Of a stretch of DNA of 64,000 bases, positions 4,968-53,200 are shown piece after piece. Source of the DNA: Amphiura filiformis (lineage: Eukaryota > Echinodermata > Ophiuroidea > Amphilepidida > Amphiuridae); the NCBI RefSeq assembly GCF_039555335.1, contig NC_092647.1:19380946-19444945 (forward strand). The letters run 5' to 3'. Every line of letters starts with the position of its first letter. The first letter of the stretch is position 1. The translations under genes were made by a program, and so were the position numbers. Below the pieces are notes generated by a model. It did not search any database and was not told the DNA's origin. It saw only the letters and a program-made list of their open reading frames with translations.

Positions 4968-4991
4968 AGTATAAGGCTATTTATATATTAC

Positions 4992-5680: not shown

Positions 5681-6518
5681 TTTTCCAAAGTATATTTTGA
5701 ACACGTTGAATACTGTGATAGTCTGCGTAGGCTGATAATGACATTACAGATGACACAAACAAAGCTATTGCGACTTTCTAGCCAGGGTAGTGTGTCAGCG
5801 AACTTATCCGATGTCAATTTCGCGCAGGCAACTTTAATGCATGTGCAGAGTGAATAACCTTTTTTCCACACCACCAGTACAGAAGCCAATAAGATTTCCC
5901 TAAATTGTGTCAGCACTCATAATAGATTCGAAGTGCATACTATAATAATACTCGCATCCATATTCATATTCAATTACCAATTAATTTCTATATACTCTGT
6001 CTGGAAGGGAAGTGACCTCATAGCTGCAAAGGTTTCTTAATTCATCGGCGGTGTGTTTTCGTTCACTCATAGCTGTGTCACCCGGCACGAACCATTTGCA
6101 AGTTAAGGTCACATCCGCCCGTAGAATAAGTTTATGTTATTCAGTCACACTTACGCTGATATTGTAATGCACGCTTCGTTGGGACTTAGGCAGTGCCGCA
6201 AGTAACTATGGAACATTTAAGCCCACTATTATTGCATCAATAAAGTTTGAAAGCTTTTGAATTTGGTTAACTTAGTCATTTACTTGATATTCAAGATAAG
6301 AGTTGGCAATCAGGAAATGATCCAACACATTACCAGCTATTACGACAAGATATTCATGTGATTGAACTTTCAGGGATGTTCCACAGAATAATACTGCTAG
6401 AATGGGGAATGTTTTCATAACAACAAACAAACAAAACAACAACAAACAATAACATAGTCATTTTGTCGTGATGTTTAAACCACGCAATAAATCAGGGTTG
6501 ATTGGTGTAATCAGACCA

Positions 6519-14554: not shown

Positions 14555-15601
14555 ATGTTCAAGAGCAAGAAATCCGCATCTGGGCTAACCAAGTCATCCA
14601 AGTACTTTGACCAATTAAGAAAAGGAAAGAAGAAATCGGAAAAAGTCACTTTTGAAGACGCCAAACCAAAACTTGATGAGGTCTTAGACTTCCTCAAAAT
14701 TGCGATGATTTCACATCGAAAGAGATTGGCGATGCGCTGAATGATCTTGTCACCATCCCCGAAGATATGTCGGTAAAGCTCACCCAGGAAGACCTGGCAA
14801 AGAATCGCGGCGATGTCGGGGAATATCTAACTCAAAACGGCTACGCAGAACTCTTTGTGAAAATCGTCACATCTCTGAAGAGTCACGTCAGAGTCTATGC
14901 TAAACTCAAAGTGTCACAAGCGCTTGAAAACTTTAGATTAGTTCTTCGAGGTTTTTGTAATTACACCGCTTGGTGCCCACAATTGCAGATTGATTTTGCG
15001 CTTCAAGATGGCGTCAAGACCCTGTTTCCGCTTCTTGAATATATCGATAAAAACCTACCACAATGTGATCCAAAATCAAAAGCCGTTGCCTTGATACAGC
15101 AGATTCTGTTGTTTCTCATACCGATCTTTCAGAATTGTATTAAATATTGCCCCAAAAACCGCAGTGCTTATCGCGAAGCAAATGCTTTCCAGATCCTCAG
15201 CAACATGAAGTCGTCGGACAAGAACATCCAGTTGTTAGCACTTCTGACGATGGCATATGTCGTCGACGACAAGCAAAGCCAAGGTCTTTCCAAGTCACAT
15301 GATTGTATCAAATTACTCACCGAGATGCTTGACGAATGCGTCAAATCGCCTGATCACTCCATTATTATTCATCCGCTGTGCTATTCAATCAGAGAAATTC
15401 TGGATGGTTTGAATCATCTTATCATCAATGATGATAATAAGGTGGAGCTGAAGAAACACGGGGGAATTCGAATTATCTCTCAGATTGTGGAAGATGATTC
15501 CTTTTCTCAGGAGGAGAAGCGTCTTGCTGTGGAAGCCATTGGAGCCCTTGCCTTTGTGAAGAGCATCAGAGAGACGAACGAAGTCAAGGATGCCGCAACA
15601 A
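14555..15601 (+). CDS. Exon 1 of the ARM-TIR gene: armadillo-like repeats
   Basis: One large exon encodes an alpha-helical region homologous to the ARM exon of the downstream paralogue: LRGFCNYTAWCPQLQIDFAL, NCIKYCPKNRSAYREANAFQ, ILDGLNHLIINDDNKVELKK and LAVEAIGALAFVKSI have close counterparts there. The frame starting at 14555 stops at 14740; the paralogue's homology continues from codon 14701 in the frame that also contains ATG 14767. So translation either shifts, starts at 14767 (losing about 70 residues), or the sequence has lost one A in the run before 14700. The donor GTAAGTGTG follows 15601. ARM repeats in SARM1 hold the TIR inactive and sense NAD/NMN; the same job here is inference. 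Confidence 0.75.
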
Positions 15602-18600
15602 GTAAGTGTGATGGCATTACCCCTCCTCGCAATTCGAACAGTCCCCCTCCCGCTAAAGGCGTACTTTTTGATCAAATTAGTCCATGTGTTACATGTTTTA
15701 TTGCTGTCGAACCCAAAGTGTTGTCGCACAAAATGCAAGGACATTGTCCCGAGGTTAACAGCATCCGGTATCCTTAATGGTTATGAAATTTAAAGGAAAC
15801 CCATTCGTTATTTCCAAAGATTATTCATTCACTGAAACCAAACAAGGATGTACAAGTGTTTTCATTTATATTTGATAGTGACTTTATGAAACCCAGGCCA
15901 ACTGACATATAATACATGTCCATTTATTTATTCTTCATTCATTATATTTTACAGTGTTAGAAAAACTAGCAAGCTCAGAGAATGACAAATTGCGTGAAGC
16001 AAGCAAGTACGCACTTTTTGAGATCAATGAAGAAACCATCAAACCAATCAAGGAAGGCATCACGGCATCTGCACCACCCGCTGCTGCAGGTGAATCACCG
16101 CCAACATATACGCAAGCAGTAGCTGAGGGCGCTAAAGGAACATGTCTGGTCACGTGATGATAAGTTACCAATGGGACTCTCAAGAGCGTGCTGTCTATAT
16201 CAGAGATAAGCTGAGAGAACATGGGTACAAGGTGTGGTTTGATCTAGATGACATGAGTAAGTCATATTTCCATATTGTAGTTTGCAACTTCAAAGAGCAG
16301 TATTTGGAACGGCTCTTTTCAGAGCCATCAGTGGCCAGGGACCCTCTAATGTACAGTAGACCTGCAGTTCATTTCAGAGCCACAGCTGACAATAAATGTT
16401 CAATCCACAAGCAAGAAGCGCTTATTTACTTTTCTCTATTGACAAGAGGCGGTCTCCAGTGATCGGTTCTTTTCAGAGCCACCAAAAACTTTTACATTAG
16501 TAGATAGGCGAGGTCTGTTTTTCACTGTTCACAAGGGCAGTCTTCAGTGAACGACCCTTTTCAGAGTCATCAGTAGGCAAGGAGCTCACTGCCTACATGT
16601 ATCATAATTAGTACCTTGTCCTGAAGAAGTCAGAGCTATAATCCCGACGAATGCCAGACAGTTCTAAACATGTGCGAAGGCGATCCCGCCAAAGTATTCG
16701 ATGTTGCATGGCGTGATTATTATATATACTCACTATTGGTTCCAAAATTCAAAATATCATTGCTACGAAAACACTCCAACGTGAAAAGAACGTCATATGG
16801 CATATCAATATAAAATGCTGGAAACTTTTTTTCCAGATATAGATGTAAATAATCATGATGTTGTACTCATTTTTCCCTCTCATTTCAGAGGGCGACATAG
16901 TAGATGCCATGGCTGATGCAGTACAGAACTCTGCCGTAGTTCTCATGTGTATGAGTGAAAGATACAAAGAAAGCAGCAATTGCAGATCAGGTAAAGTATG
17001 CCCTCTGGAAAGGACTTCTCTATGCAGTATATGGGGGGGGGGGGGCACCGAGCATAAGAGGGGCATAAGAGGGGAGATGGAGAGAAGTCGCTCGTGGAGG
17101 GGGCACCGGGTCTGATGGGGGTTGGTCACACTCACAAGCCGTTTTTCAATGACGATTCACCACTGTTTCTACCAATGTTTACCGACCAAGTAATTCAAAT
17201 CCTAAACTGAATTTTGGTTGTTTCTTTCTTTGTTTTTCCATGTATCGTTTAATAGTTTTTTTTTTTTACATGTTTTTCTTCGTGTATGTAATTTTGTTTG
17301 TGTGTTACATATGTATATTCTATTTTTGTTAATATACCTGTCGTTCTTCTCTATCCATGTCTCCGAATCGAAATAGCTTTTTGATGTTTATCTTAAATCT
17401 TCGGATAAATATTACAGTACTTAGTGAACTACACGTACATGTCATTGCATGATGAAGTGTCACGTCATTCCTAGACTCATAAAAGAGGGAAGTGTGACAC
17501 TGAACTGACTGAAGTGTGTGGGCTTCGTCGTCTCTATTCATGTCGTTTGGGTTCTCTCCAAATTCTAATAGATGTTTTATGTGTATCTTTGGTTGGTATT
17601 ACAGAAGCACAATACGCGCACAAGTTGAAGCGTCCTATCATTCCTCTGCTCATGGAAGAAGGACTTGTGATTTATGAAGTGTTTGGGCCCCGTCGTCTCT
17701 ATTCATGTCGTTCGGGTTCTCTCCTCCAAATTATAATAGATGTTGTATGCTTTATCTCTGGTTGGTATTACAGAAGCATAATATGCACACAACTTGAAGC
17801 ATCCTATCATCCCTCTGCTCATGGAAGAAGGACTTGTGATTTATGAAGTGTGTGGGCCCCGTCGTCTCTATTCCTGTCATTTGGGTTCTCTCCTCCAAAT
17901 TATAATAGATGTTGTATGCATTATCTTTGGTTACAAAAGCACAATATGCGCACAAGTTGAAGCGTCCTATCATCCCTCTGCTCATGGAAGAGGGACTTGT
18001 GACTTATGAAGTGTGTAGGCTCCGTCGTCTCTATTCGTGTCGTTTGGGTTCTCTCCAAATTCTAATAGATGTTTTATGCATTATCTTTGGTTGGTATTAC
18101 AGAAGCACAATATGCACACAAGTTGAAGCGTCCTATCATCCCTCTGCTCATGGAAGAAGGATACGATCCCGATGGTTGGCTGGGTTTCATACTCGGAACC
18201 AAACTCTACTACAAATTCTGTTGCGATACGGAAACAGATGTAGATGGATTGCTGAAAGGGATCAAAACACTGAAGATTGGTAATAATAATATAAACTTGA
18301 ACCTATATCTCTCTAAATGTATACCAAGTGGGAAAAAAGAGTGAGAGAGTGAAGCGGAGGACAGTCCCTTTTTGAGTGGACAAAATTCACTCTAAAAGGA
18401 TTGAAAAAAGTAGTCTGTTGTATACTCTCAAACGAGTGATTATTGCCTAAAGAAAATGTACTTTCAGAGAATATAGGATGTAGTCTAAATGTAAAAGAGT
18501 GAATTCCCACTCTTTCAATGAGTTGAACGAAGGACAACCCGTTTTTGAGTGGAAAACACTCTAAAATGAAAGAAAGTACATTTTTGTTAGGCAATATTCA

Positions 18601-19251
18601 CTCTTTTGAGAGTATACATACTACTTTTTTCAATCCTTTTAGAGTGAAATATTTACACCCAAAAAGGGGCTGTCCTCCATTTCACTCTCTCGCTCTTTTT
18701 TCCACTCTTTCCACTCGGTGTATATTTAGAGAGTATTATTTGTTCTGCAATAATATTGTTACTTAAAGTTACACAATTTGTTTAGATTCTTGTTACACAA
18801 GATATGTTAAAAACAGAACAAAAATATGTTCCAATTGGCAAGCAGTTACACAAGAATGGTTCTAATGAAACACTTATGTGGAAAACACAAAGAATGCACC
18901 ATACATATAAAAATTATTGTAATAATTAATTGTTGTATTTAATTTGGTGTGTTATGCACATTTTCTCAACTTTGTGTTATGCACATTTTCTCAACTGTTG
19001 ATATACAAACTATAATAGACTACAGTATTAATAAATGACTACCTGGCAACTAATATAAATACTAACGAATGCCATGTCCAAAGTATTGATAACATGTAGG
19101 CTAACTGTTAGTATACATGCTATACCAGATCATATAGTTAGCTTTGTAAAGTGATACATATTATTATACATGCATAATCTATGGTATTTCCTTGTTTCGG
19201 AAATTGAATCTACCTTTTTTCTTTTTTTTGATTTCGCTTTCAGGCAAATAG
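14555..19251 (+). CDS. ARM-repeat/TIR gene without SAM; two apparent frameshifts
   Basis: Paralogue of the gene at 26339-31349. Exons inferred by alignment to it: 14553-15601, 15955-16256, 16889-16990, 18103-18279, and a candidate last exon 19244-19251 that adds Gly-Lys-stop. All introns are phase 1. The ATG at 14555 lies two bases after a good acceptor (TACTCTTTGCAG), the same spacing as in the paralogue. The coding frame breaks twice, near 14696-14701 and near 16131-16142; each break is explained by loss of one A from an A-run. The TIR keeps the catalytic-type Glu. Predicted role: an ARM-regulated, TIR-based NAD-cleaving enzyme, by analogy with SARM1. It could be a recent pseudogene, or intact with consensus errors in the assembly. 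Confidence 0.75.
15955..16256 (+). CDS. Exon 2 of the ARM-TIR gene: linker and start of TIR
   Basis: It begins after TATTTTACAG. The first part encodes the last ARM-like helix (LREASKYALFEI), then a Pro/Ala-rich linker. The TIR domain begins with GHVMISYQWDSQERA and runs through the region before the BB loop (GYKVWFDLDDM). The two parts are in different frames: the ARM frame stops at 16157, while the TIR frame is open from 16142. One A missing from the run at 16131-16133 would explain it. The exon ends ATGA followed by GTAAGT, as in the paralogue. Confidence 0.75.
16311..16568 (+). promoter_or_regulatory. Cluster of histone-type 3' stem-loop sequences in intron 2
   Basis: GGCTCTTTTCAGAGCC at 16311-16326 is a perfect match to the replication-dependent histone mRNA 3' stem-loop (6-bp stem, TTTC loop), preceded by AAC. 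GGTTCTTTTCAGAGCC at 16465-16480 has one G-U pair and the typical ACCA after it. GACCCTTTTCAGAGTC at 16553-16568 has one mismatch. A weaker relic, TTCATTTCAGAGCC, lies near 16369-16382. No histone frame and no clear purine-rich downstream element (CAAGAAAGA) is present. They could be histone-gene debris, a repeat derived from it, or working processing signals. Confidence 0.65.
16889..16990 (+). CDS. Exon 3 of the ARM-TIR gene: TIR middle, signature up to the catalytic Glu
   Basis: A 102-bp exon between TCTCATTTCAG and GTAAAG encodes GDIVDAMADAVQNSAVVLMC, then MSERYKESSNCRS; the last base is the first G of the Glu codon. The pattern SxxYxxSxxCxxE is typical of enzymatic TIR domains. The paralogue's exon has the same length and the same borders. 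Confidence 0.85.
17510..18102 (+). repeat. Array of three partial, decayed copies of exon 4 with its acceptor
   Basis: Units of about 163-169 bp each contain the 3' end of the intron (from GAAGTGTGTGGG) plus the 5' part of exon 4 (AAGCACAATAYGCGCACAAG through CTCATGGAAGAAGGA). Exon-like starts lie at 17605, 17774 and 17937; the complete exon starts at 18103. Copy 1 keeps an AG acceptor and would encode the Glu and IIPLL strand before running into a different tail that stops at 17846. Copy 2 has CAA changed to TAA at the third codon. Copy 3 has its acceptor AG changed to AA. All copies leave the exon at the same point, GGA followed by CTTGTGATTTATG (or CTTGTGACTTATG). Confidence 0.85.
18103..18279 (+). 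CDS. Exon 4 of the ARM-TIR gene: TIR C-terminal half
   Basis: After TTGGTATTACAG the exon completes the Glu codon and encodes AQYAHKLKRPIIPLL, then GYDPDGWLGFILGTKLYYKF, the conserved C-terminal TIR helix region of these invertebrate proteins. It ends at G before the donor GTAATA, phase 1. Alignment with SARM1 places this Glu exactly 13 residues before the Pro of the IVP/IIP strand in both. Confidence 0.85.
18309..18733. mobile_element. MITE-like foldback, about 140-bp arms
   Basis: The left arm CTCTCTAAATGTATACC..GGGAAAAAAGAGTGAGAGAG is mirrored by the right arm ending TATATTTAGAGAG. The interior is rich in GAGTG/CACTC words. It lies 30 bp downstream of the exon 4 donor, within the last intron of the ARM-TIR gene. 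Confidence 0.85.
19244..19251 (+). CDS. Candidate last coding exon of the ARM-TIR gene (Gly-Lys-stop)
   Basis: A strong pyrimidine tract ends TTTTGATTTCGCTTTCAG; joined in phase 1 to exon 4 it gives G, K and the stop TAG at 19249-19251. This would end the protein right after the TIR, with no SAM domain. I found no SAM-like exon between here and the next gene. A later small terminal exon cannot be excluded. Confidence 0.4.
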
Positions 19252-25368: not shown

Positions 25369-25984
25369 GTAAGTTTTTATTTGTTTTGTTCTTCCACCGG
25401 GTTCTTCCATTGTGTTACATAAAAACGGTTTAAGTTACATAAAAATTGGTGATGTCATAAATACATGCGAATAAATCTTGTTACTATGTTAGCTCTAGTT
25501 GTATACATGTACTAGTATATCCAAATGCTAGTCTCACTTATTTATGTGTTATCTTTGCTCTCATAAACGTTCGTCGTTGTCGAAACTTCACCACATGTAT
25601 TGATTTTCTTATATTTTTGCTAATATGAAAAGAAAGAAAATGTCTATCTTAATCTACATGTTATATATGTTTCCAGTTTGGAGTTCATGATATTTTACAT
25701 TATAAAAATCACAAAATACCGACCCCTTTCCCTAGATATGTAAGCGGTTCTGATCGATGATCAATCTTACCGGGTAAATAAGTAGAGTGACGGCCACGAG
25801 GAGAATCCATAACAAGCAATGGATGCGCCGTCAGATTGAAGGGATGTCTGGCTTCTGATGAAGGCAGAGTTACACCTGGCGAAAGCTGGACAATCTTTTC
25901 AATTCGACGGTGCATCCGTTGGGCCGTTTTGGTACTTTTACCGGGGTATATGGGCCGATCAGTTATGCTTAATAATGATACACC

Positions 25985-26215
25985 AGGATCCACAAAATGA
26001 TCATCTATCAGGGCACAGTTCTTTAACCCCGATACAATTCATTGAATGACCTTTGAAAATTTGAGTACAAAAACTCATACTCTGCAAATTGAGGTCAAAT
26101 TGTGCACTATAATTGTTTAATTGAGGTTATTGAACTATGCCATTGGGGTGAGGCCATTGTGGTCCATAGTGATTGTCCTACAATTACACCAAGTAGTTTG
26201 GTGGTAATAATGTGT
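25985..26215 (+). repeat. Dispersed repeat family B, copy 2
   Basis: It begins GGATCCACAAAATGATCATC and runs through CAGGGCACAGTTCTTTAACC, CATTGAATGACCTTTGAAAA and TTGAGGTTATTGAACTATGC to GTCCATAGTGATTG. Homologous to the copies at 4205-4445 (inverted), 27490-27705 and 28130-28330. Confidence 0.8.
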
Positions 26216-26336
26216 GCAATTTAGCATGCCGCGAGGAGGTTCAAACTATACCTACCCATCCTGCGTCAGACAATGGTTAAAAGTGTATCCGAATCTAAGC
26301 TATTGAGTGATCTTGAAACACTATTTATTTCCACAG

Positions 26337-27401
26337 GAATGGATAAGATTACCAACTTCTTAGGAAGATTCACAAATCCAACCAAAAGATCTTCAAAGCA
26401 ATTGTCATTCGAAGAGGCGAAACGAAAGATAGATGATATACTCGAAATTCTTAACAAAGACAGCATTGATTACCTACAAGATAACGTCGTCGAAGCATTA
26501 TTAGAAATAGGGTCAATACCGCAATTGCTGATTGGTGAACAAGAGAGCATACCGCGAGACAAGTTCACAGAATTTCAGGCAAAATTGCTTTTAGTTGCAG
26601 ATTATCTCGGAGAAAAGAAATATGCGGAGTTGGTTGTAACAATGACTAAGTCGTTACATTGTAGTTTATATTACGCGACAGACAAACGACCCTATGCGCT
26701 AAACTGTATCAATATACTATTGGATAGTTTCCGCAATTACACGGACCAATGTCTAATTCTGGCTAGAGATTTCGGAGAATCTGGAGGAGTAGATGCGTTA
26801 CTGAAACTTGTGACTTATCTCATCGATTCGATGAATGTCTTTGAAGACGCTGATCAAATTGTGGCAAGAATGGTTTATCAAAGATCAGTTGCTATTCTCC
26901 ATAACTGTATTCGCGTGTATCCGGATAATCGTATTTTCTACAGGAAAGCCGACGCTGTCAAGGTATTGTCTGATTTGAAGATCACTGATCAAACGCAGTC
27001 TTCAGAACACGCCAATGTATTTCTGGTGCTTATCATGTCTTATGTGGTCGATGAACATGAGAGCGAGTCGTTGGCTAAATCAGAGGATTGTGTCAGACTG
27101 TTGACGAAGTTATTGAATGAAGCGGTACAGTGCGAAGGTCATTATGCTATGACACGAGATCTTGGTGTCACCCGCACTACCGCCTTTTCGGCACTAGAAT
27201 TACTGGATGGCTTAAACCATCTGGCAATTAACGACGCTAATAAGGCTGAGATTGAAAGACAAGGCGGACTATCGTCAATCATTAGAATGCTACAAGCTGA
27301 CTTTTCTGAGGAGGAGAAAGCGATTGCGACCAAAACTTTGTGGAGTTTGGCTTTCTTGGACAGCGTCAAAAGAAGCGCCGAAGTCCAAGCTTCGGTTGAC
27401 A
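26337..27401 (+). CDS. Exon 1 of the ARM-TIR-SAM gene: armadillo-like repeats
   Basis: It encodes residues 1-354 and the first base of 355. Leucine-rich helical repeats are visible: SFRNYTDQCLILARDFGESG, LHNCIRVYPDNRIFYRKADA, LELLDGLNHLAINDANKAEI and ATKTLWSLAFLDSVKRSAEV, typical of ARM/HEAT-type solenoids. An upstream in-frame ATG at 26273 would add 22 residues, but the stretch between them contains a convincing acceptor and probably is intron. The donor is GTAAGATC. Confidence 0.8.
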
Positions 27402-30400
27402 GTAAGATCATATTTTCTTTTGTTTCTTAACAACAAAATGAAAGACAATGTTATGTCTTCCATAATAGCTCATAATAGAGAACATATACACTAGGATTCA
27501 CAATATGCTCATCTGTCAGAGCGCATTTCATTAACCCCAATACATTTGCACATTCATTGAATGACCTTTGAAAATTTGGGTACAAAAACTCATACTCTGT
27601 AACTTAATTGAGGTCAAATTTTGCACTATTGTTATTTTATTGAGGTTATTGAACTATGCTATTGGGATGAGGCTATTGTTGCCCAGAGTGATAATTGCCT
27701 GAAAATACAATCTAAAACATATACGTACAACTGACACATAAAACACATAATTATGCGCAGTTGAGACTTAAAACACATGATTATTATGTCCAGCAAACCA
27801 TATAAAACTACAGCACCAAGACGTATCTCAAAACTCAGTATAGCTTTTATCTTTCTGGAAGTGTCTTGCATGATGGAGTTGTACGTGATGTGTGATATAG
27901 AGAGATGATGACAAAACACTCCATGTAGTGCAAGGCATTCTCTTCACTGGAGAAGTGAGTGTTTAAAACCGGCTTCACAGGATTGGACCTTTGGCAAGAC
28001 CCGTGCTACTTTAATGTAAGATATTATGTAGGCTATTAGTAGGCGGGTGACGAATACAAAACGTATCGTAACCTGCAATAGACAAAAACACAAGAACTTT
28101 GGTTTTGCAAAGACTTGTAAATGCATTCACTAAGAGCCACAACATGTTCATCTATCAGGGCACAGTTCTTTAACCCCAATATATTTGTACATTCATTGAA
28201 TGACCTTTGTAAATTTGGGTACAAAATCTCTTACTCTACAATTTGAGGTCAAATTTTGCATTATGCTTGTTTAATTGAGGTTATTGAACTATGCCATTGG
28301 GATGAGGTCATTGTGGTCCATAGTGATTGCAAACTATCCAATAACTATATAATGTCGCATTACGTAGCATAGACTGTGAGGGAAACGGATCTGCAAATTA
28401 TTGGCTTTATTTTATTTCTTTGGTTATACTTACTGTCTATAGCCTTACAGTCTTTAACTGTCTCCAAAAACCAATCATTGAGAGAAGCGAGCACATACGC
28501 TCTGTGGGAAATACAGGACAACCAACGCAACTTGCACCAAGAATCGCCGCCATCTGGTGAAGAAAGCATTGACGCACATGTGCAGACCCAATCAGGTGGT
28601 CATGTGATGATTAGCTACCAATGGGATATACAGAAACGCGCAATTTGCATAAGAGATAGACTCATTCAAGAAGGGTACAATGTTTGGATGGATATTGACA
28701 ATATGAGTAAGTTGATTATAATAGGACTATTTAGTTAAAAGTAGTTTAAGAAAGGTGATGTGGCATTCAAAAGTCTCCACTTTTTTTCAAGCAGGGGAGT
28801 GATGCCACAGACAGAACATACTACCCAAAATGATGCACACCAGATTTTTTTTACCGTTACCTACTTCATATAATAATTAACTCTCTTCACGCGGGTGTCG
28901 AATGCAGACGACATGTTTCAAAATAAATTTTAAAATTCAAAAATTTCAGAAATGTAAATTTTCATGACCATATTTGGAATCGGCATGAAAAATCCATTAA
29001 AATGAGTACAAACAAGCCTAGTATTGGTTCAGTAGTTCTTAAGATAGCTCTTGATATTTTGAGAAAATATTTCAAAACGTTGAAGCGCATGGCTAGCACG
29101 CAGAGCATTAACCCCGTTACTCTTAGCCCTAATTTCTGATTTTCCGGGGTTTTTTTAGGAGGTGACATACTTGACGCAATGGCAGATGCAGTTGAAAGAG
29201 CCGATGTAATTTTGATTTGTATGACGGAGAAGTACAAAGACAGTTCTAGTTGCAGATCAGGTAGGTCGCCTAAATAAAGCCACATGTCACAGAAGAAGTT
29301 GCCCAAAGGTGTCAAAATTCTCCAAAAATGTCCGAAATTTTGCAACATTTTTAATGTTAAGTAAAGTTCCCCAAAAGTGCGTGAGGTTGCATGACTTATT
29401 TGTGCTGCACTGGAAAATTTTGGACAATTTGATGGAATCCGCGCTCACCTTACGCAGCTTGCGCGGGAGTTGAAGCAATTTTGAGTAATTTTGAAAACTT
29501 TTGAGCATCTTTTCAGCAACTTTGAGAAAATGTTAAGCAATTTTGTGAAATTTTGAATAACTTTACGCGATTTGAGGAACTTAAAAAGCAACTTTGTGCA
29601 ACTTACCGCAATTTCGAGGAAGTTTTAAGCAAGTTTATGAAACTTTGAATAACTTTATACTATTTTGACAATTCTGGACCACTTTGGGCAACTTCCCCTG
29701 TGACATAGGGCCTTAAATAAAGAACAAATTCTGTTTAAAATGGTGTTTTTTAAAGAGATTGCCACCGGGAATTGCTACATACATATCGTCACTGACCATA
29801 TACTGAAACTTGTGTATTATTTTATGATGATGTCGCCGGCAGCCATACTTTTGTCTGCCAATAGGGGAATGCAGAATTCAGCCCTTCCAGTAACTTATTG
29901 TAAACATCTCAAAAAAAGTAACTAACCCCCTTAAATAATGGCAATTATTCAAAAACGGGCAATTGTATTACAAATCTGTAAAATGCATTGGAAGCAGAAT
30001 TTATGTCTGCGCATTTTGACACCTCATTTGTAGCAATTGTCTAAATATTGATGCCGCAGCGTACATTTAAATCAATGTAACCCAAAATTTGTGTTTTTGT
30101 ATTGGTGTAAGTGCAACTTTCAAATCTGGATCTCACTACATTAAATTGACCGGTGTTTTATTGTTTTCTGGGCTATCGTATCAAATGAGGTGTCAAAATG
30201 CGCAGAAATTATTTTACAGATTTTTAATACAATAGCCCGTTTTTTAATAATGGCCATTATTTAAGGGTGGTTAGTTACTTTTTTGAGATGTTTATTATAT
30301 TAATTTTCATTAGAAGCTTCATATGCCACGAAGAAGAAGAAACCAGTCATTCCTTTATTGCTGGAAAAAGACTACGAACCAGACGGCTGGCTGGGAATAC

Positions 30401-31349
30401 TTCTAGGAACGAAGCTATATTACAGATTCTGTACTGAGGAAGACATGGTTTCAAATATGGTAGGGCTTATTAAAGAGATTGGTGACAATGGACGAAAGAA
30501 TGCGGATCCTCCGACTGATGAAATAGATGGTGAGATTACCCTAAATTATCGGCATAAGATATGTCAAAAGGGTTCTTTGACCCTTTCTAAGTTGTCCTAT
30601 AAGAGGAACTCTCAAAAGAGGTTGAAATTTTAAGAGCCCTTGGGAGCTCTAAAAGGGTAAAGAACAACAAAAGGATGCTCAGAGCCGCGCCTAAAAATCA
30701 TTTTTGCTGGTTCCGTTTAAGTATCCATCGGGGACTCTCTATAGATTACAAACTAATGCTGGTTTCATACTACCCTGCCGCTTGCCGCTGAGCGGCGTGG
30801 CGCACGCGTATTGCAGACAAACGGACACAATCAAGGCTTGTCATTGGTTGAAACGCCCTGCCGCTTGCCGCTTGCCGCAGCGGCAAGCGGCAGGAAAGTA
30901 TGCTGGAGGCTTAAGGACCCTTTTTGGTACTCTATTAACCACCCGGCCAAATGTATTAGGGTAGCGCCAGTTGTTCTAAAGTCATAATTATATGTTTTAT
31001 CTTCAATACACTTATAGGTCCTATAACGCCCGAAGCCGCACCAATCGTGACGGCGTCACCATCGTCCACCGGAGCCGGGATGAACCAAAACAGCTCTAAA
31101 GAGAGCGTTACCACGGCAATTGAGTGGTCAACTGAGCAAGTCCAGTCTTGGTTGCATGACATCGGCTTAACAGACCTGTGCTCGTCGCTGGATTTCTGTG
31201 ATGGTAACCATTTGAAGGAAATGTATGAACAGTATAGACAATCTCCAGACGTCTTTCGAAGTGAGATGAAGGCAGATTTGACATTGAGCTTTAGAGATCT
31301 CCTGAAATTTACGACTGCTCTAGGACGACTTTTAAGAACACCTGATTGA
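26339..31349 (+). CDS. ARM-TIR-SAM protein, predicted NAD-cleaving TIR enzyme (intact, 658 residues)
   Basis: Five exons: 26337-27401, 28443-28706, 29159-29260, 30314-30529 and 31018-31349, all with GT..AG borders and all introns in phase 1; the joined frame is open to TGA at 31347-31349. Domains: ARM-like helices at about residues 20-400, TIR at about 407-535, one SAM at about 584-652. Glu477 of the TIR aligns with the catalytic Glu of SARM1. SARM1 has the order ARM-SAM-SAM-TIR, so the SAM here is single and on the other side of the TIR. ATG 26339 is preferred over 26273 because it follows a good acceptor (TTATTTCCACAG) by two bases, as in the upstream paralogue. Likely cytoplasmic: there is no signal peptide or membrane segment. 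A poly(A) signal follows at 31386. Confidence 0.85.
27490..27705 (+). repeat. Dispersed repeat family B, copy 3, in intron 1
   Basis: Same order of blocks as the other copies (TTAACCCCAATACATTTGCA, CATTCATTGAATGACCTTTG, GAGGTTATTGAACTATGC), about 80-90% similar by eye. Same orientation as the gene. Confidence 0.8.
28130..28330 (+). repeat. Dispersed repeat family B, copy 4, in intron 1
   Basis: Starts near GAGCCACAACATGTTCATCT and ends GTCCATAGTGATTG. It lies only about 110 bp before exon 2 and about 430 bp after copy 3, in the same orientation. Confidence 0.8.
28443..28706 (+). CDS. Exon 2 of the ARM-TIR-SAM gene: linker and start of TIR
   Basis: The acceptor TTACTGTCTATAG is chosen over the nearby TTACAG because it keeps phase 1 and aligns exactly with the paralogue (LREASTYALWEI here, LREASKYALFEI there). 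A linker follows, then GGHVMISYQWDIQKRA, the first beta strand and helix of the TIR, and the strand YNVWMDIDNM. The exon ends ATGA before GTAAGTTG, at the BB-loop position. Confidence 0.85.
28780..29158. other. Intron 2 of the ARM-TIR-SAM gene
   Basis: No repeat border or regulatory site recognised. Unlike intron 2 of the paralogue, it has no histone-type stem-loops. Confidence 0.5.
29159..29260 (+). CDS. Exon 3 of the ARM-TIR-SAM gene: TIR middle up to the catalytic Glu
   Basis: A 102-bp exon after a T-run and AG encodes GDILDAMADAVERADVILIC, then MTEKYKDSSSCRS, with the G of the Glu codon as last base before GTAGGT. Length and borders equal those of the paralogue's exon 3. Confidence 0.85.
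29290..29720. repeat. Degenerate short-period repeat in intron 3
   Basis: Many variants of CAATTTTGAGTAATTTTGAA and GCAACTTTG follow each other with a loose 12-15 base rhythm, some in the complementary sense near 29290-29410. No exact unit could be defined. Confidence 0.5.
29901..30294. mobile_element. MITE-like foldback adjoining the exon 4 acceptor
   Basis: Arms of about 125 bp: AAACATCTCAAAAAAAGTAA..AATAATGGCAATTATT..ATTTTGACACCTCATTTG at the left, mirrored to the right end GAGATGTTT at about 30294. Only about 20 bases separate it from the first base of exon 4, so the element supplies most of the upstream splice context. Confidence 0.85.
30314..30529 (+). CDS. Exon 4 of the ARM-TIR-SAM gene: TIR C-terminal half and linker
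   Basis: After TTTTCATTAG it completes Glu477, then encodes ASYATKKKKPVIPLL and DYEPDGWLGILLGTKLYYRF, as in the paralogue. An acidic and Asn-rich linker follows (GDNGRKNADPPTDEID). Phase 1 at both ends; donor GTGAGA. Confidence 0.85.
30757..30910. mobile_element. MITE-like element with CTGCCGCTTGCCGC motifs in intron 4
   Basis: GCTGGTTTCATACTACCCTG..GCCGCTTGCCGCTG at the left is mirrored by CAGCGGCAAGCGGCAGG..AAAGTATGCTGGAGGC at the right; GC-rich arms around an AT-richer middle. Confidence 0.75.
31018..31349 (+). CDS. Exon 5 of the ARM-TIR-SAM gene: SAM domain
   Basis: After CACTTATAG it encodes a Pro/Ser/Thr-rich linker, then a SAM domain beginning EWSTEQVQSWLHDIGLTDLC and ending with the helix DLLKFTTALGRLL. 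The W..VxxWL..IGL pattern is typical of SAM helix 1-2, used in SARM1 and many signalling proteins for oligomerisation. Stop TGA at 31347-31349. Confidence 0.8.
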
Positions 31350-31385
31350 GCAGATTTTGTCCTCCTAAGTAGGATTAAACACTAA

Positions 31386-36069: not shown

Positions 36070-39000
36070 TCAGGTTTTCTTCTCTGTACGCTTGGAAATT
36101 ACGTCAGAAATTGTGTACAGATATGGGTTAATAGCAGAATTAATAGGCAACACAAAGGTCACACACCAAGCATATACAGAAGGAGGCAGAGTAATCACCC
36201 TCGTCTGTACCAGAATTCCAAGAAGAATGATCGGAAACCAACAGAAAAAATCTGTGGCAACTATGACTGTTACCTTCAATGTAAGTCGAATCTGTTCTTC
36301 CATACTACGAGAACGACCTGAACTTTCGGCAGATTTCCCAACAGCTCTCCATATCTCGATATAACAACCAAGTATAATCAAGTAACACACGCAATTCAAA
36401 CCCAAGAACACTGCTGTTGAGAAGAACAGACCATGAACAAGAGAATCAAATTCAGTATATGAATATTTGAACAGATTTCGAAATTCAGTACTAAAATCAT
36501 GATATTGAGATGTAATTCTCCTCGTAGTAACCTTATATGTTTTAGTCAATGCGAGTGGAAGGCCAATACACACGTGCGAGTTGTCATAAAATTTGAAATC
36601 CCTTCCAGCTAAGATAGATGGAATAATGCCTAATAAAAAGGAACCGATCCATATCATAATCACTAGTGTTATACACAAGTTACGTGTAATATTTCTGGTT
36701 GAATACGGAAATCTAATGCCAATAAACCGTTCTATGCTAATAAGTGTGACAAAGAACACAGAAGCTTCGCTGGCGATTATTGACAAAGCCCCGGCAATCC
36801 TGCAAGTAATACCTGATCTCCAGGCTTCAGATTGCATAGGAAATGAATCTCCAAAGTAGATATCAGCAGATGCAATCGTCAACATATATATACCCATGAG
36901 AAAATCAGATGCGGCAAGATTACTTAGCAACATAGAATTTACTTTATTTTTTGCGGTTTCTTTGTTTCTCCAAACAAAAACAAAGAAATTTCCACAAAGA
37001 GCATTCAAACCAATAAGCCAAATCACAATAACTAAGGCACGGTCAGAAAGCAATCTGTCACATGTAAGATATGGTGATCTCTTACCCTTTGTATTACAGG
37101 TGACATTAAATGAAACATAACACTCGCAAATCTCATGTTGGCTTACGAGCACTTTTGAATACCTTGCCAGGGAAGAAAGGCTATCGTCAGTTACTAATGT
37201 CAATGGATTATTGTTCAACCATAAAACCAAAACATCGATTAAAGAAACATTACTTGATATTTCTGTTATTCTGTTATAAGACAAATCAACTACATTTAGT
37301 ATAGGAAGTATGGTGAATGGCTCGAAAATGTCAATGTCTAGCTGTGTTAAAAGATTATTTTGGAGCATCAAAAGTTGTAAAGACGCTAAACCTTGAAACA
37401 CATTTTTATCCAATCTTTTCAATTGGTTCTGCATTGCATATAGGATACCTAAACCGGACAAACCTTCAAAGACACCGTTATTTAATTCAATTAATCCGTT
37501 CTTTGAAATATCTAGTCTATACAAAACGCTGAGACCAAGAAACATGCCCGGTTTTAACCTGACCAGCTCATTCATATGGGTCAGTACAAGGATTAACAAT
37601 CTAGTCCTTCTTTTCGTCTTTTTCAAGACTTTTGGTACCAAGTTTACATTATTTGTTCCAAATTGAAGCTGGTAACGTAAAGATAGTCTATCAAATATGT
37701 TACAAATCAGTGTATTATTTTCACTAGGGAGCTGGTTGATAAAAAGAGAGAAACTCGCCAAATTACCCAACATTGGATACATACTTTCTGGTACGTGCAA
37801 CTTTTTCATCATAGTGTTAAATATGTACAACTGCTTGAGCTTTTTTAAGCCTATAAATATTCCCAGATCCAATGACACAATCTGATTATTACTAAGTAGC
37901 AGATAATCCACATTTATCAAATCCTGAAACCATTTTGAATTCACATTACTTATCTGATTTGATTGCAGGTCTAAGACTCGCAAATTAGTCATATTCTGAA
38001 ATATTCCATCTGGTAAAGTTCTCAACATGGTGTTGCTTATCTGTAGAAAAAGTAGTGCGCCTATATTCAAATCCCGAAAGAAACTCTCGTGGATAGTAGT
38101 TATCTGATTGGAACCACCCAGTAATAAAAAGGCCAGTCCTGACATATTCTTAAGTTTCACCTCCTGTAAAGTACTCAACTTGATGTTAAATAGGCCTAAG
38201 GTCCTAAGAGCACTTATACCTTGAAACAATCCTGCATTCAAACTGGTTATCGGATTTGTATTGAGGTACAGACTCTTCAAATTTGCCAAATTCTGAAATA
38301 TCTTCTCTGGTAAATTGCGTATCAGATTATTGGTTAATTCCAAATCAATTAAATTGGTTAAATTCTGAAATACCCTCTCTGGTAAAATGCGTATTTGATT
38401 ATAACTAACATCCAAATGAGTTAAATTTGATAAACCCAGAAACATTGCCTCCGGTAGAGTACTGAACATATTATATGGCAGGTTCAACTTTTTGAGCATG
38501 TTGTTCCGCAGACCCAATTGTACGAAAAAATTGCCATCTAGCGATAATTCTTCCAAATTTGTCAAATCCCGATTTATCTTGGCCGGTAACGAACTCAACC
38601 AATTGTCTCTAAGCAACAATTTTGTTAAGTTACTCAACCCTTGAAATGATCCATCTACCAATTTGGTTATCAGATTGAAGCTAAGGTCCAACGTCTTCAA
38701 AAGTGCCAATTCCTTAAATACACCCTCCGGTAAAGCACTTAAGCTATTTTCGGAGCAAGTAAGGTATAAAATACTACGCAATCCTCGAAACGAACCTGCA
38801 TTCAGTTTGATAATATGATTATTATTAAGGTGTAACTCTTCTAAATTTGGCACATACTGATATGCCCCTGCTGGTAAAGTAGCGAATCTATTACCAGAAA
38901 GGAATAGGTGTGTTAGCTCATTCAAACCTCTAAACAATCCAGCCTTCAATTTTGTTATCTGTATAGCGTCAACGTACAATTTTTCCAAGATTGTCAATTC

Positions 39001-39990
39001 CTGGAATATTCCATCGGGTAAAGTACCCAATTTATTTCCAGAGAGCATGAGATATTTAAGTTTACCCAAACCATGGAACGATTGTGCATTCAATTTGCTT
39101 ATCCGATTGATTCTAGCGGTTCCATCTTTAAGAAGCTTCCAGCCTGCAAAACCCAGACTTAAATGTTCCAGTTGATTTAAATACTGAAATACTCCGTCTG
39201 GTAAAGAAACTAACACGTTGTCCTCCAGGAAGAGAGATTTCAACTTAATCAAATCTTGAAAACTTCTGTCACTTATTTCCACTAAATTATTGGATCGTAA
39301 GTCTAAATTGCCTACATTTATTGGATAGATGACCAAACCTCTCTGGTTCTGAGAAATATCGTCTTGGTTACATCGATACGTTACTTCCCTTCGGCCAAGA
39401 ATTGTACTACAACCAGTATGGAACCTAACCCTACATTCATAACCATCATGAAACTCACATATCGTTTTGTTCTTGTACCCAGTAACATTTTTACAGATAG
39501 AATTCTGACTTATTTCAAATTCTGGACATTGCTGCAATGAACCTTCATCTGCTGGTCTGCCAATGATTGACAGTGTGGTATTGCCTTGCAAAAATATCAG
39601 GATATTTCTTTGAATTATGATAACATTACAATTCTCAGATAAATCATTGAATAATACATACTTACTAGGGCAATGATCAAGCTGCCCTCTGCGTTCAATA
39701 TACAGATGTGACTGGTTATTCACCGGTCCACGTATTTGCAGTTGGGTGTGAGTATCGCGAGGTGTGGTTACGTTAAGGCTACACGAGCGATCAGTGCTTC
39801 CTCTGAAGAGTGTCGAACCATCACTGGCATTATTCACAAAGCATGGATTGGTATCATTGACAGATGCATCCCACAGAGGTTTTATCAGTAACTGAGCTGA
39901 TACTGCCATTTCCCATTGTTTCATTATGCATACGACTATGATGATGGTAAGTAACTTTGGAATGCAATTCCAAGGTCTTGAAACCGCCAT
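36070..39990 (-). CDS. Leucine-rich-repeat G-protein-coupled receptor (GRL101/relaxin-receptor type)
   Basis: One uninterrupted frame of 1306 residues. The ATG at 39990 lies two bases after an acceptor (T-run, AAATATAG on the minus strand), so a 5' UTR exon is expected upstream. A hydrophobic signal lies at about residues 11-24; a Cys-rich, glycosylation-site-rich N-terminal region follows to about 210; some two dozen LRRs of the LxxLxLxxNxIxxLPxGxF type fill about 221-930. A Cys hinge (CECYVSFNVTC) leads to the first of seven membrane helices at about 986. ERF replaces DRY after helix 3 (near 1086) and NPYLY lies in helix 7 (near 1288). The second extracellular loop is long and the C-terminal tail very short. 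The family binds peptide hormones or large ligands and couples to G proteins; the ligand here is unknown. No LDLa module was recognised, unlike GRL101 and RXFP1/2. Confidence 0.9.
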   Translation of the reverse strand: MAVSRPWNCIPKLLTIIIVVCIMKQWEMAVSAQLLIKPLWDASVNDTNPCFVNNASDGSTLFRGSTDRSCSLNVTTPRDTHTQLQIRGPVNNQSHLYIERRGQLDHCPSKYVLFNDLSENCNVIIIQRNILIFLQGNTTLSIIGRPADEGSLQQCPEFEISQNSICKNVTGYKNKTICEFHDGYECRVRFHTGCSTILGRREVTYRCNQDDISQNQRGLVIYPINVGNLDLRSNNLVEISDRSFQDLIKLKSLFLEDNVLVSLPDGVFQYLNQLEHLSLGFAGWKLLKDGTARINRISKLNAQSFHGLGKLKYLMLSGNKLGTLPDGIFQELTILEKLYVDAIQITKLKAGLFRGLNELTHLFLSGNRFATLPAGAYQYVPNLEELHLNNNHIIKLNAGSFRGLRSILYLTCSENSLSALPEGVFKELALLKTLDLSFNLITKLVDGSFQGLSNLTKLLLRDNWLSSLPAKINRDLTNLEELSLDGNFFVQLGLRNNMLKKLNLPYNMFSTLPEAMFLGLSNLTHLDVSYNQIRILPERVFQNLTNLIDLELTNNLIRNLPEKIFQNLANLKSLYLNTNPITSLNAGLFQGISALRTLGLFNIKLSTLQEVKLKNMSGLAFLLLGGSNQITTIHESFFRDLNIGALLFLQISNTMLRTLPDGIFQNMTNLRVLDLQSNQISNVNSKWFQDLINVDYLLLSNNQIVSLDLGIFIGLKKLKQLYIFNTMMKKLHVPESMYPMLGNLASFSLFINQLPSENNTLICNIFDRLSLRYQLQFGTNNVNLVPKVLKKTKRRTRLLILVLTHMNELVRLKPGMFLGLSVLYRLDISKNGLIELNNGVFEGLSGLGILYAMQNQLKRLDKNVFQGLASLQLLMLQNNLLTQLDIDIFEPFTILPILNVVDLSYNRITEISSNVSLIDVLVLWLNNNPLTLVTDDSLSSLARYSKVLVSQHEICECYVSFNVTCNTKGKRSPYLTCDRLLSDRALVIVIWLIGLNALCGNFFVFVWRNKETAKNKVNSMLLSNLAASDFLMGIYMLTIASADIYFGDSFPMQSEAWRSGITCRIAGALSIIASEASVFFVTLISIERFIGIRFPYSTRNITRNLCITLVIMIWIGSFLLGIIPSILAGRDFKFYDNSHVCIGLPLALTKTYKVTTRRITSQYHDFSTEFRNLFKYSYTEFDSLVHGLFFSTAVFLGLNCVCYLIILGCYIEIWRAVGKSAESSGRSRSMEEQIRLTLKVTVIVATDFFCWFPIILLGILVQTRVITLPPSVYAWCVTFVLPINSAINPYLYTISDVISKRTEKKT

Positions 39991-40019
39991 TGCTATATTT
40001 AAAAAAAAAAACACTTGGT

Positions 40020-40870
40020 TAGACGATGTTTAAAACTTAATATATTATGAAGTTTTATTTAAATTTATCGGCTGATAAATAAAACTAATTTGTTTGGATC
40101 CATGCTCCTAATTATGTTCTTGAATCATGATATGAAAATGTCAAAACAGACAATTTAGTAAGATTCAACGGCACTAAGTCCAATGTCAGTATCTCCCTAC
40201 CTTTGTATGAAGCTTCTCGTTAAGTGAGCAGGAGGTACTTCTTTCATGAAATCTCCATTCCAAATGTTCAATAAATTCTGCAAAAGTAGTTCAGTTGGAG
40301 ACAGGAGTCCGCAGATAAAGCTTAATTTTGAACGCAAGTCTCTTTGTTAATCACCAATCTTAACTAATCACAATCGTCTGCTAGATGTTCCCATCAAATT
40401 TGTAAGAAACGTTGTGTTTTCTCGAATTGTTTGAAGCATAATAAGCACAATAAACGCCAAATTTATGCAGTAGTGTATATAACTATTATTTGCAAATCTT
40501 AGTGCTACAAATCTCGTGCATGTAGAAATCTTGTGGTCGCATGTTGTTCCGCAGCCGAAGCCAGCGGGATAATAAAGATATTTTACTGTTATATTCCTTT
40601 CTACATGTGACTAAAATATTCGACTCAAATACATCTGTAACTTAGTGATTGGCTCAGCGTGGCTCACACCACATGCACGTGATAGAGCCGGTTACGTATT
40701 ATCTTAGCAGACACACCCAGAATAATACGGAAAGCCATATCGGATGATTGGTGTATGATGAAATTTTGTACACAAGTCTATGGCGAGTGTCATCATCATA
40801 CAAAATTAGTGTTGTATGATAAACTAGAGCGGTTACCGCAACATAGCTGAACCATGTGCCTTAAGCCATT
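40020..40870. other. Upstream region of the GPCR gene
   Basis: The promoter and 5' UTR exon of the minus-strand receptor should lie here or further right. I see no unambiguous TATA box or donor that fixes the exon. Confidence 0.4.
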
Positions 40871-44905: not shown

Positions 44906-45620
44906 AATACCAATGGCCCGTCGCTCACCAACGGAGTATTAAGTTGCAGGGTAAAAATATTTATAATACAGGGGCAGGGATGCAAATTGTGTGGGAGCGG
45001 GGACCACCGCTCCTAGGAAATGACAGTCAAATTGAGGAAATAATGACTTGAGAAGAAAAAGAAAAAGAAGAAAAAAGAGGGATGGAGATAAAAAGAAAAG
45101 AGGGGTGGAAGAGGGAAAAAGGAAAGAGAGGAAAGAAAAAGAAGAGGAGGAGGAGTGTGGTAGAAGATGACGTAGAAGGAAACAGATCTCAGCAAAAGAT
45201 AACAAAGTAATAGGTGAGGGCTGTGAGGCAGTGAAGCTACTGAATGGATGAGAGGAAATCTCAGGACAATGGTTGTGCAAAATTTTGAGGAATTTACATG
45301 ATTGTTCAAGAAATAAGAGCCTTAAAAGAGGAACGTGTTGGGATAACTTGGTGTTATAATATGGAAATGAGTAAAATGCATATTTGAAGAAATTTACAAT
45401 TCATCACATGATGCGGTATACAAAAAAAAAAAAAGAAGTTGGGTGAAGGCAGTTGGAAACATCATGGCACAACTCTGAGGAAATTTATACAGAGGCGGCA
45501 ATAAAGATTTTAAGGGTGAAAAGTCATAAAGGAATTCAGTGTATTGATTCAATACTAATTCCAGTGAGGAGAATTTAAGTCCTGTAAAGGTCGTGGTGAA
45601 TTCTGCTGTAGACATGACTG
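44906..45620. other. Intergenic, purine-rich stretch
   Basis: A GA-rich run at 45045-45180 gives long Ser/Phe/Leu-rich minus frames by composition only. No gene recognised. Confidence 0.5.
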
Positions 45621-45659
45621 CATAATGTTATATTTTGATTGCAGTGACTGTTTTCCTTT

Positions 45660-46560
45660 GCTAGCACAGGTCAGTCATCTGATGGTTACTGGACCATGTA
45701 AACCTGTCAAAAACGCGATATACTACTGGCCCTATGCAATTCAGAGCTCTGAAGCGCAGGTGACATCAGGGATTCTACAAGGAAGTGTTTTGGGCCCTCT
45801 ACTCTTCGTCATTTACACCAACGACCTTCCAGATTGTGTGTCTGCTTCTAAAACAAGACTGTTCGCTGACGACAGCCAATCTACCGGAACATTACATCTC
45901 CAGAGGACTCGGTCGCTCTCCAACGTGACCTTGACGCCCTCCAGAAGTGGGAATCTGACTGGCTAATGAGTTTCAACGCCTCAAAGTGCCAAGTGCTACG
46001 TGTGACCAACAAACGTATGCCCACTCTTGCATCCTACTCCATCCATGGCCACACTGTGGAGATCGGGAACTCGGCTAAGTATATCGGCGTCCATCTTGAT
46101 TCCAAACTGAGCTTCAACACTCACATAGACACCATCACCAAAAAGGCGAACTCAACCAAGGCTTTCCTGTCTCGTAACATCAGCCACTGCAGCCAGAAAG
46201 TCAAGGAAGCAGCCTACACTACCTTCATAAGACCAACTGTGTGGAGTATGCAGCATCTGCATGGGACACACACACACACACACACCCACACCCCCACACA
46301 CCCCCACACACCCACCCCCACCCACCCCGCGTAACAACAAGAAACTTGAACAGGTGCAACGAAACTCAGCCCGCTTTGTCATGGGAGACAAGAGAGAATA
46401 AGCAGCGTAACCTCAATGCTCCGTCATCTCAATTGGACTTCTCTCCAGGATCGACGTCTCGTCAGTCGCCTTCTCATGATGTTCAAGATTCGTTTCGACC
46501 TGGTTGATATCCCATGGAGTCACTACCTCACCCATCCCTCTTCATCCACAACAGTGGTGA
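45660..46560 (+). pseudogene. Non-LTR retrotransposon reverse-transcriptase fragment
   Basis: The first frame carries the palm region: SGILQGSVLGPLLFVIYTND, LFADDSQST (the FADD catalytic motif). After a shift near 45930-45966 a second frame gives SFNASKCQVLRVTNKR, then IGVHLDSKLSFNTHIDTITK and the thumb-like region. A (CA)n tract interrupts it at 46266; beyond it, LNWTSLQDRRLVSRLLMMFK can be read in broken frames. 5'-truncated and non-functional; Jockey/CR1-like superfamily by motif. Confidence 0.8.
46266..46329 (+). repeat. (CA)n/(CCCA)n microsatellite
   Basis: CACACA units grade into CACCC units. It lies inside the reverse-transcriptase fragment, so it expanded after insertion. Confidence 0.95.
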
Positions 46561-50202: not shown

Positions 50203-53200
50203 GTAAGTCTCAAAATCGGATCCAATATTTCCATCAAATTTTGTCAAATCAAGTATTTATTAATACATGGACGGTAAACCCGCCATGTTATTGTACATGT
50301 TGAACTTACATGAAGTGCCACACCATTCCTCCCTCTTCTCACTTGGTCGCGAGATCCTTTTTAGGGGGGGAGGGTCATAATGTGGCTTGGGTGAGTGGGC
50401 TTTTAAGCCCTTAGTAACCCAAAAAGGTTTGGAGTTTGCTTTTGAAGTCGTTGATGGTTGGAGCTAACACTGTAGAATTAGGTAGCCTATTCCAGTCTGT
50501 TATAACTCGTTGGCTGTAGAAATATCGTCTTGTATCTACTCTCATGTGTTGTTTTTGAAGTTTCATTGGGTGGCCTCTTGTACCTTGGTATTCTGCTAGT
50601 TGGAACATGTCTGTCGGTTTTATGTTGTCAATTCCTGTGAATATTCTGTACGTTTGGATCAAGTCTGCTCTCCTCCTTCTATCTTCTAGTGTCATAAGAT
50701 TCAGTTCCTTTAGTCTTTCATGATATGGTTTGGATTTCAATTCTGGTATTATCTTTGTCGCTCTTCGCTGCACACCTTCAAGCAGCTTGATGTCTTTCTG
50801 TTGGTATGGTCGCCAGGCTTGTATACTGTAATCTAAATGTGGTCTGATGAGGGACTTGTAAAGCTGTAAAACAATTTTCTTGCTCCTGTACTTGAATGTT
50901 CTTTTTACCATCCCTAGTGTTCTGTTCGCCTTCTTTGTTGCTTCCGCTACCTGCTTCCCTACTTTAAGTGTATTTTCCGTCCAGACGCCCAAGTCTTTTT
51001 CTTCTGTTGTACTTGCTAACGCTTTATTCTTCATTTGGTACTGGTGTTGTGGATTGTTGTGTCCAATGTGCATGACTGAGCACTTGTCTACATTCAAGCT
51101 CATTTTCCACTTGTCAGACCAGTCCATGAGCTTGTCTAAGTCATCTTGCAGTTTCTGGATCTCTACATCTGAGCCAACCTTGCTTGTCATCTTTGTGTCG
51201 TCTGCAAATTTACTGATCTCTGAGATGATGTTTATTTCCAAGTCATTCATGAATATGAGGAAGCAGAGTGGGCCTAGGACGGATCCCTGTACAACTGAAC
51301 TTGACACATCACTTGTCTTGGATTTTGCTCCCTGAACTACTACCCTCTGTTTTCTATCAGCTAGCCACGCTTGTATCCATCTCAGTACTTGGCCTTCTAT
51401 GCCGTGAGCTTTTAGTTTTTGCAACAGTCTTTTGTGTGGTACTTTGTCGAAGGCTTTTTGCAGGTCTAAGTAGATGACGTCAACAGGGTGCTCTTCAGCA
51501 ATATGCTTTGTTACCGTTTCTAAGTGCATTAGTAGGTTTGTAGTACAAGATCTGCCTTTCATAAAGCCATGTTGAGTGTCTCTGATGAGGTTATGTTTGT
51601 CAAGATGGGTAGTTACTTGGTCTTTGATTAGTTTCTCCATTGTTTTGCAGACTACTGATGTGAGACTAATCGGTCTGTAATTTCCAGCTGATGATCTTGG
51701 CCCTTCTTGTACACAGGTGTTACATTTGCCATTCTCCATTCTTCTGGTACGTAACCTTCTTTGAGGGAGAGGTTGAAGATTATTGCTAACGGTTCTGCTA
51801 GCTCACTTGCAAGTTCTCGTAACAGCCTTGGGGAAGCGTTGTCTGGTCCTGCGGCTTTGCTGGGGTTTAGCCCAAGCAAATGTTTTTCAACTTGTTCTGG
51901 TTCAATTGTCATAGTTCTGAGTATTTCACTTTCTTCACCATTGAACATTCTTGGCGCTTCTGGTGGCTCGTCGCCTTCTTCTGTGAATACTGATGTGAAG
52001 AAATTGTTAAGTTCTTCGGCCGTTTCTTTGCCTGGTGGTATTACATCTCCGTCTTTATTCTTCAATGGTCCAACAGTGTCTTTCACTTTTCTTTTAGATC
52101 TGGTGTATGCATAAAATCCCTTGGGATTTTCTTTGATTGAGTCAGCGATACTTTTCTCATACTTGTACTTTGCTTCACGTATTTTCTTCTTCGCTGCCTT
52201 CTCACAATCTCGGTAATGCTCTTTGTCTGTTTCACTTTTGGTTGTCTTGAATTTCTGCCATGCTTTCTTCTTTTTCCTGACTGCTTTCATGGTTGCTCTT
52301 GTCATCCATTTTGGCTTTGTTTGTTGCTGGTTTGTCTTCATAGGTATGTGCTCTTCTGCTAAGGAATCAAGTTCGGTTTTCAAACAGGTCCATGCTTCTT
52401 GTGTGCATTTATTTCTGTACTCTTCTTCCCAGTTTCTGTTATGTAACTTCTTTCTCATTTCTTCATAGTTTCCTTTGCCGTAGTTTCTTGAGTGGGCAAC
52501 AGTTCCAGCCTTGATGCTACAAATCATGTCCCATGTAACAATCTGGTGGTCGCTGGTGCCTAACTTGTCATGCACTTGTAAGTCATCTATCATGTCTGGC
52601 TCCGAACTCAGCACCAGGTCTAGTATTGAGTCTTCCCTTGTTGGTTCCAACACGTGCTGGGTCCATAGGTTGTCTTGTACTAGTTCTAGGAAGTCATTTC
52701 CCTTGCTTGTCGTAGCTTGTAACAGATCCCAATCTATCTCTCTAAAGTTGAAATCTCCCATCAATACAATGTCATGTTTGGTTTCAGCAGCTTTCTTGAG
52801 ATCTCTGTATAATTGGTCAAGTTCTTCATCCGTTACTACTTGTGTCTTGTATACAGCTCCAATTAGTATTCCAGCTTTCTCTTTCTGGTTCTGTTCTGTG
52901 TTCACATTGGATATCTCACACCATACTGCTTCTTTAAATTCAAAGTCTTCTCTTCTGACAGCTTCTATGCTGTGTTTCAGGTACAATGCTGCACCTCCAC
53001 TTCTTTTTGTTTCTTTTTCTCTGTCTCCTCTAAATAGCTGGTACCCTGGTAGCTGCACTTCAGCATCAGCTATGTCTTTGTCTAACCATGTCTCTACAAC
53101 ACCAATTACATCTGGTTTGTCTTCTTGTAGTATTCTGCACTCAAATATGTCCCATTGTTTTATTATACTTCTTGCATTAACAAACCAGCACTTCAGTTTT

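Follow-up and report, generated by a model that had tools for sequence, protein, structure and literature searches.

The 64,000-nucleotide stretch of Amphiura filiformis DNA analysed here (contig NC_092647.1, positions 19,380,946 to 19,444,945, forward strand; hereafter the window) contains a five-exon gene, called gene A, which very probably encodes an ARM-TIR-SAM protein as modelled below. The gene is best explained as a cytosolic TIR protein of the invertebrate ARM-TIR type, placed in a tandem of two genes and provided with a C-terminal SAM exon; together with the mechanism proposed below, this reading is given a probability of about one half. The neighbouring paralog B, with the same exon plan and no detectable SAM, suggests a family of ARM-TIR genes in which one of the two copies in the window has a SAM. 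A preliminary description of the locus had presented the protein as having the domain types of SARM1 in another order, and this was borne out for the kinds and order of domains and for the likeness of the SAM to SARM1 SAM1, but not for the TIR, in which all three SARM1-group signatures are missing. It can be said that "ARM-TIR family gene with a C-terminal SAM" is a better label than "SARM1 reordered".

Gene A and its predicted product

Gene A, as rebuilt from the sequence alone, occupies positions 26339-31349 of the + strand, with a start ATG at 26339, a TGA stop at 31347-31349 and a product of 658 amino acids (aa) in which residue 477 is a glutamate; coordinates, both ends, E477 and the number of exons are all as previously described. 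The exons and one signal behind them are as follows.

26339..27401, + strand: gene A exon 1 (aa 1-354), encoding the N-terminus and the greater part of the ARM region
28443..28706, + strand: gene A exon 2, the final ARM helices as judged from the paralog match, linker and first part of the TIR; AG acceptor, donor GTAAGT, phase 1
29159..29260, + strand: gene A exon 3, middle of the TIR, ending one residue before E477
30314..30529, + strand: gene A exon 4, end of the TIR; the intron upstream splits the E477 codon
31018..31349, + strand: gene A exon 5, Pro/Ser/Thr-rich linker, C-terminal SAM (aa 549-658) and stop codon
31386..31391, + strand: AATAAA, candidate polyadenylation signal, 37 nucleotides (nt) past the gene A stop

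All four introns are of the GT-AG type and in phase 1, a second candidate signal (ATTAAA) lies at 31374 downstream of the stop, and the gene appears to be intact. An in-frame ATG further upstream, at 26273, would lengthen the product to 680 aa and turn the glutamate into E499; however, the acceptor-like stretch tttatttccacag sits immediately before the ATG at 26339, therefore 26339 is the likely start and an intron in the 5' untranslated region is likely as well. The reading frame is more than chance, because exon 1 lies within a stop-to-stop frame of 401 aa, whereas in 100 order-2 Markov simulations of the window the longest frame had a mean of 161 aa and a maximum of 238 aa. No strongly hydrophobic stretch was found in the product (highest 19-residue mean 1.29 on a simple hydropathy scale) and, by that scale, no transmembrane segment.

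Of the three domains, only the TIR passes its Pfam cut-off: the spliced protein matches Pfam TIR_2 at E 8.1e-20 and 72 bits (cut-off 28), SAM_1 gives 15 and 18 bits, under its cut-off of 23, and no ARM or HEAT model of Pfam reaches its cut-off. The other two domains, and with them the order ARM-TIR-SAM with one SAM found, are upheld by structure. The SAM fold is backed by a structure model match at modest Z, with SARM1 SAM1 as the best-matching rows, and the ARM superhelix finds a clear match in the structure-model comparison. A phmmer search with the full protein gave Vac8 at E 0.0012, while a profile built from the ARM exons of both genes retrieved no PDB chain. The ARM of SARM1 is not among the 50 matches listed for the gene A ARM model, which is no evidence against a likeness. 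In SARM1 itself the SAMs assemble into an octamer and the ARM carries an allosteric NMN/NAD site; for gene A the matches concern the SAM and ARM folds in general.

The TIR domain and the proposed mechanism

Under the TIR profile E477 is aligned to a glutamate of the RPS4 and Cat1 TIRs, which we take to be their catalytic residue, although the matches are weak (E 0.17-0.22); among PDB entries the profile matches a SEFIR-domain protein best (E 0.076), in an alignment that stops short of the glutamate. Four residues before it RPS4 and Cat1 have a tryptophan, whereas gene A has a serine. The motif SxxYxxSxxCxxE, earlier ascribed to gene A, is carried in its exact form by paralog B, and gene A reads TxxYxxSxxCxxE (TEKYKDSSSCRSE); the glutamate is kept in both TIRs of the window. 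TIRs of the SARM1 group (group-24) are characterised by a BB-loop E(R/K)LEAG, an EE-loop H(D/E)YQ and Trp-x-His-x-Glu (PMC7075850; papers are cited here by PMC number and from excerpts of their text). Strict text patterns for these three signatures found none of them in the whole 658 aa, while the box-1 residues ISY are common to the gene A TIR and the SARM1 group. The glutamate would thus suit an enzyme, but its pocket appears not to be SARM1-like, because of the serine in place of tryptophan and the missing signatures.

The TIR profile also matches models of bacterial defence TIR and SEFIR proteins, best of all bSEFIR at E 2.3e-09. In prokaryote genomes two scans from TIR alignments produced 33 and 108 pattern matches, and in viral contigs two scans from TIR alignments and one from the ARM alignment produced 22, 115 and 130, none of them confirmed; each scan used two specific peptide patterns and its result covers close relatives only.

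Most probably the product of gene A acts in the cytosol, in signalling or in cell death, and its SAM would cluster the TIRs. At rest, the ARM region would keep the TIR apart; a trigger binding the ARM region or a partner would free it; and the SAMs, domains which commonly make end-to-end contacts, would gather several chains so that their TIRs meet. The assembled TIRs would then cleave NAD (nicotinamide adenine dinucleotide), or use it to make a signal, and so set off immune signalling or the death of the cell. That the ARM represses, the SAM clusters and the TIR cleaves NAD is in each case modelled on SARM1 and on general knowledge of the domains, and the parts of this mechanism are not equally probable. 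A role in immunity or cell death is considered probable and assembly driven by the SAM only slightly less so, whereas the chances that the gene A TIR consumes NAD may be put as even.

The strongest competitor, though a tentative one that we hold to be rather less likely than an ARM-TIR signalling protein with its own SAM, is a non-enzymatic adaptor: its TIR would contact further TIR proteins, namely receptors or MyD88-like adaptors, SAM and ARM would bring partners, and NAD would stay uncleaved. The serine before the glutamate and the absence of SARM1 signatures agree with it; moreover, adaptor or regulator roles have been hypothesised for ecTIR-DC proteins (PMC6321704), and the same glutamate is frequent in the TIRs of TLR1/2/6/10, an example of this residue not tracking activity (PMC7075850). 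It is opposed by the retention of the glutamate in both TIRs of the window and by the nearest models and chains, among which are TIR/SEFIR proteins of the defence type as well as enzymatic TIRs.

Paralog B and the SAM exon

A search of the window with the gene A protein revealed paralog B at 14555 to ~18279, about 8 kb upstream of gene A, with a matching exon plan.

14555..15601, + strand: paralog B exon 1 (ARM); frameshift at about 14699
15955..16256, + strand: paralog B exon 2; frameshift somewhere from ~16130 to ~16142
16889..16990, + strand: paralog B exon 3 (TIR)
17584..18250, + strand: array of four tandem copies (169 nt) of the exon 4 start of paralog B, intron/acceptor edge included (repeat search, family D1, and translations)
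18103..18279, + strand: paralog B exon 4 (end of the TIR)

The two genes are 35% identical in the ARM and 63% identical over 126 aa of the TIR, and the 102 nt of gene A exon 3 have a counterpart of equal length in paralog B (16889-16990) at 69% nucleotide identity. The copies of the exon 4 start stand head-to-tail at a spacing of 163-169 nt; the last of them alone (exon 18103-18279) reads through the end of the TIR, and one has an in-frame stop. This array could stem from a decaying exon duplication or from an artefact of assembly, and paralog B as a whole may be a pseudogene, or its indels may be assembly errors.

The frame of paralog B stops soon after the TIR, where a possible final mini-exon at 19244-19251 reads GK-stop. 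No second SAM was found among the 2110 stop-to-stop frames of at least 20 aa in the window (next best E 0.42), nor by tblastn, and for this reason the SAM appears to be what differs between the two genes, although two copies fit a gain of the SAM in gene A and its loss in paralog B alike. The absence of a detectable SAM from paralog B also fits an improbable alternative, in which the ARM-TIR gene stops shortly past exon 4, the SAM exon being part of an uncommon isoform or of another gene; a short isoform is possible, as read-through of exon 4 reaches a stop after 34 further codons. Nevertheless, exon 5 has an acceptor, the correct phase and AATAAA past its stop, it contains the only clear SAM of the window, 488 nt behind the TIR exon, and no other coding exon to which the SAM could belong was noticed in the list of open reading frames, which was used without a gene predictor.

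A true relative of SARM1 with shuffled exons and SARM1 regulation preserved would have the same three kinds of domains, and SARM1 SAM1 as the best rows for the SAM model speaks for it too. SARM1, however, carries two SAMs and gene A one, and the signatures tested in the TIR are missing, and such descent is considered quite unlikely. Least probable of all is a gene A that is itself a decaying or misassembled copy without function, as the two frameshifts and repeated partial exons of its neighbour might suggest, since gene A is open across all five exons and its divergence from paralog B is biased to third codon positions. The differences at positions 1/2/3 number 25/17/62 among 110 TIR codons and 158/100/206 among 293 aligned ARM codons, and the surplus at position 3 indicates that the protein has been under selection, for the TIR since the duplication; constraint was gauged by these counts and not by the ratio of non-synonymous to synonymous rates, the synonymous rate being saturated or failing.

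With an ARM-TIR gene that has its own SAM exon as the preferred reading, the tandem pair offers a natural test of what a SAM contributes to an ARM-TIR protein, and bears on whether the use of a SAM to cluster TIRs has evolved repeatedly in animals. In its most specific form, which is doubtful, an NAD-cleaving ARM-TIR protein would have gained a SARM1-type SAM after its TIR, an assembly module at the opposite end of the enzyme and convergent with SARM1, and become a clustered NADase of different geometry, serving, next to a sister without a SAM, as a switch in immunity or cell death.

Several other features were noted in the window. One dispersed repeat (families D2, D5 and D6) lies before gene A exon 1 (25978-26175) and twice in intron 1 (27486-27694 and 28125-28329), and could help to move exons. 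Inverted-repeat pairs of 88-89 nt, 84-89% complementary and 197-226 nt apart, are found at 18331-18703 and 29896-30299, one of them within intron 3 of gene A, and resemble non-autonomous elements of small size. From the 50 stop-to-stop frames of at least 100 aa, 10 outside genes A and B were chosen by eye and searched with Pfam. A single frame of 1319 aa at 36073-40029 (- strand) contains many leucine-rich repeats and a rhodopsin-type seven-transmembrane domain (LRR_8 E 2.7e-91, 7tm_1 E 2.1e-25) and is read as a one-exon G protein-coupled receptor with leucine-rich repeats. The frame at 4991-5743 (- strand) has a peptidase M1 N-terminal domain (E 1.7e-14) with a hydrophobic anchor-like stretch ahead of it. 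Endonuclease/reverse transcriptase fragments of the LINE (long interspersed nuclear element) type lie at 50414-53292 (- strand) and 45568-45963 (+ strand), the latter under the Pfam cut-off. With spliced genes and LINE-type fragments the window appears eukaryotic; scans of it for tRNAs and, at gathering score, for Rfam families found none.

Comparison with known systems

Armadillo-type repeats together with a TIR, which define the ARM-TIR plan, are found in gene A, where Pfam identifies the TIR and the structure model alone identifies the ARM. A figure legend on the oyster names ARM-TIR as a category (PMC4346834), and 11 such proteins of Aplysia are given in the table and 10 in the text of PMC9334734. 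According to PMC6321704, ecTIR-DC proteins occur widely among invertebrates, and vertebrates apparently lack them. In these molluscan and ecTIR-DC proteins, as in gene A, an armadillo-type fold is joined to a TIR and several genes are present; paralog B fits the molluscan plan, whereas gene A, compared by description and not by sequence, differs by its C-terminal SAM. A clam protein of ecTIR-DC family 6 has ARM, Death and two TIRs in place of the single TIR and SAM of gene A. In amphioxus, a TIR-SAM hybrid (model Brafl1_131196) was reported in 2008 with its complementary DNA (PMC2575513), so TIR and SAM stand in one predicted protein there too; this comparison is likewise by description, the excerpt stating neither the domain order nor an ARM. 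The earlier suggestion of an architecture specific to this lineage therefore does not hold for ARM-TIR or for TIR-SAM, as far as these excerpts go. For the complete ARM-TIR-SAM protein, no published description was recognised in literature searches judged by title, abstract opening or excerpt, with supplements and most subscription journals outside their scope.

The likeness of the gene A TIR to bacterial defence proteins (bSEFIR, Aga TIR, Thoeris ThsB) is one of profiles; it reflects the broad TIR/SEFIR fold and concerns the TIR only. Several all-eukaryotic TIR clades, some of them common in animals, are uncharacterised (PMC13142454), and in 2020 SARM1 was the only metazoan TIR protein given with known NADase activity (PMC7075850). 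With SARM1 and TIR-1 gene A has the domain kinds ARM, SAM and TIR in common; however, in SARM1 ARM and SAMs precede a C-terminal TIR (PMC7075850), whereas in gene A a single SAM follows a TIR that is without the tested signatures of the SARM1 group.
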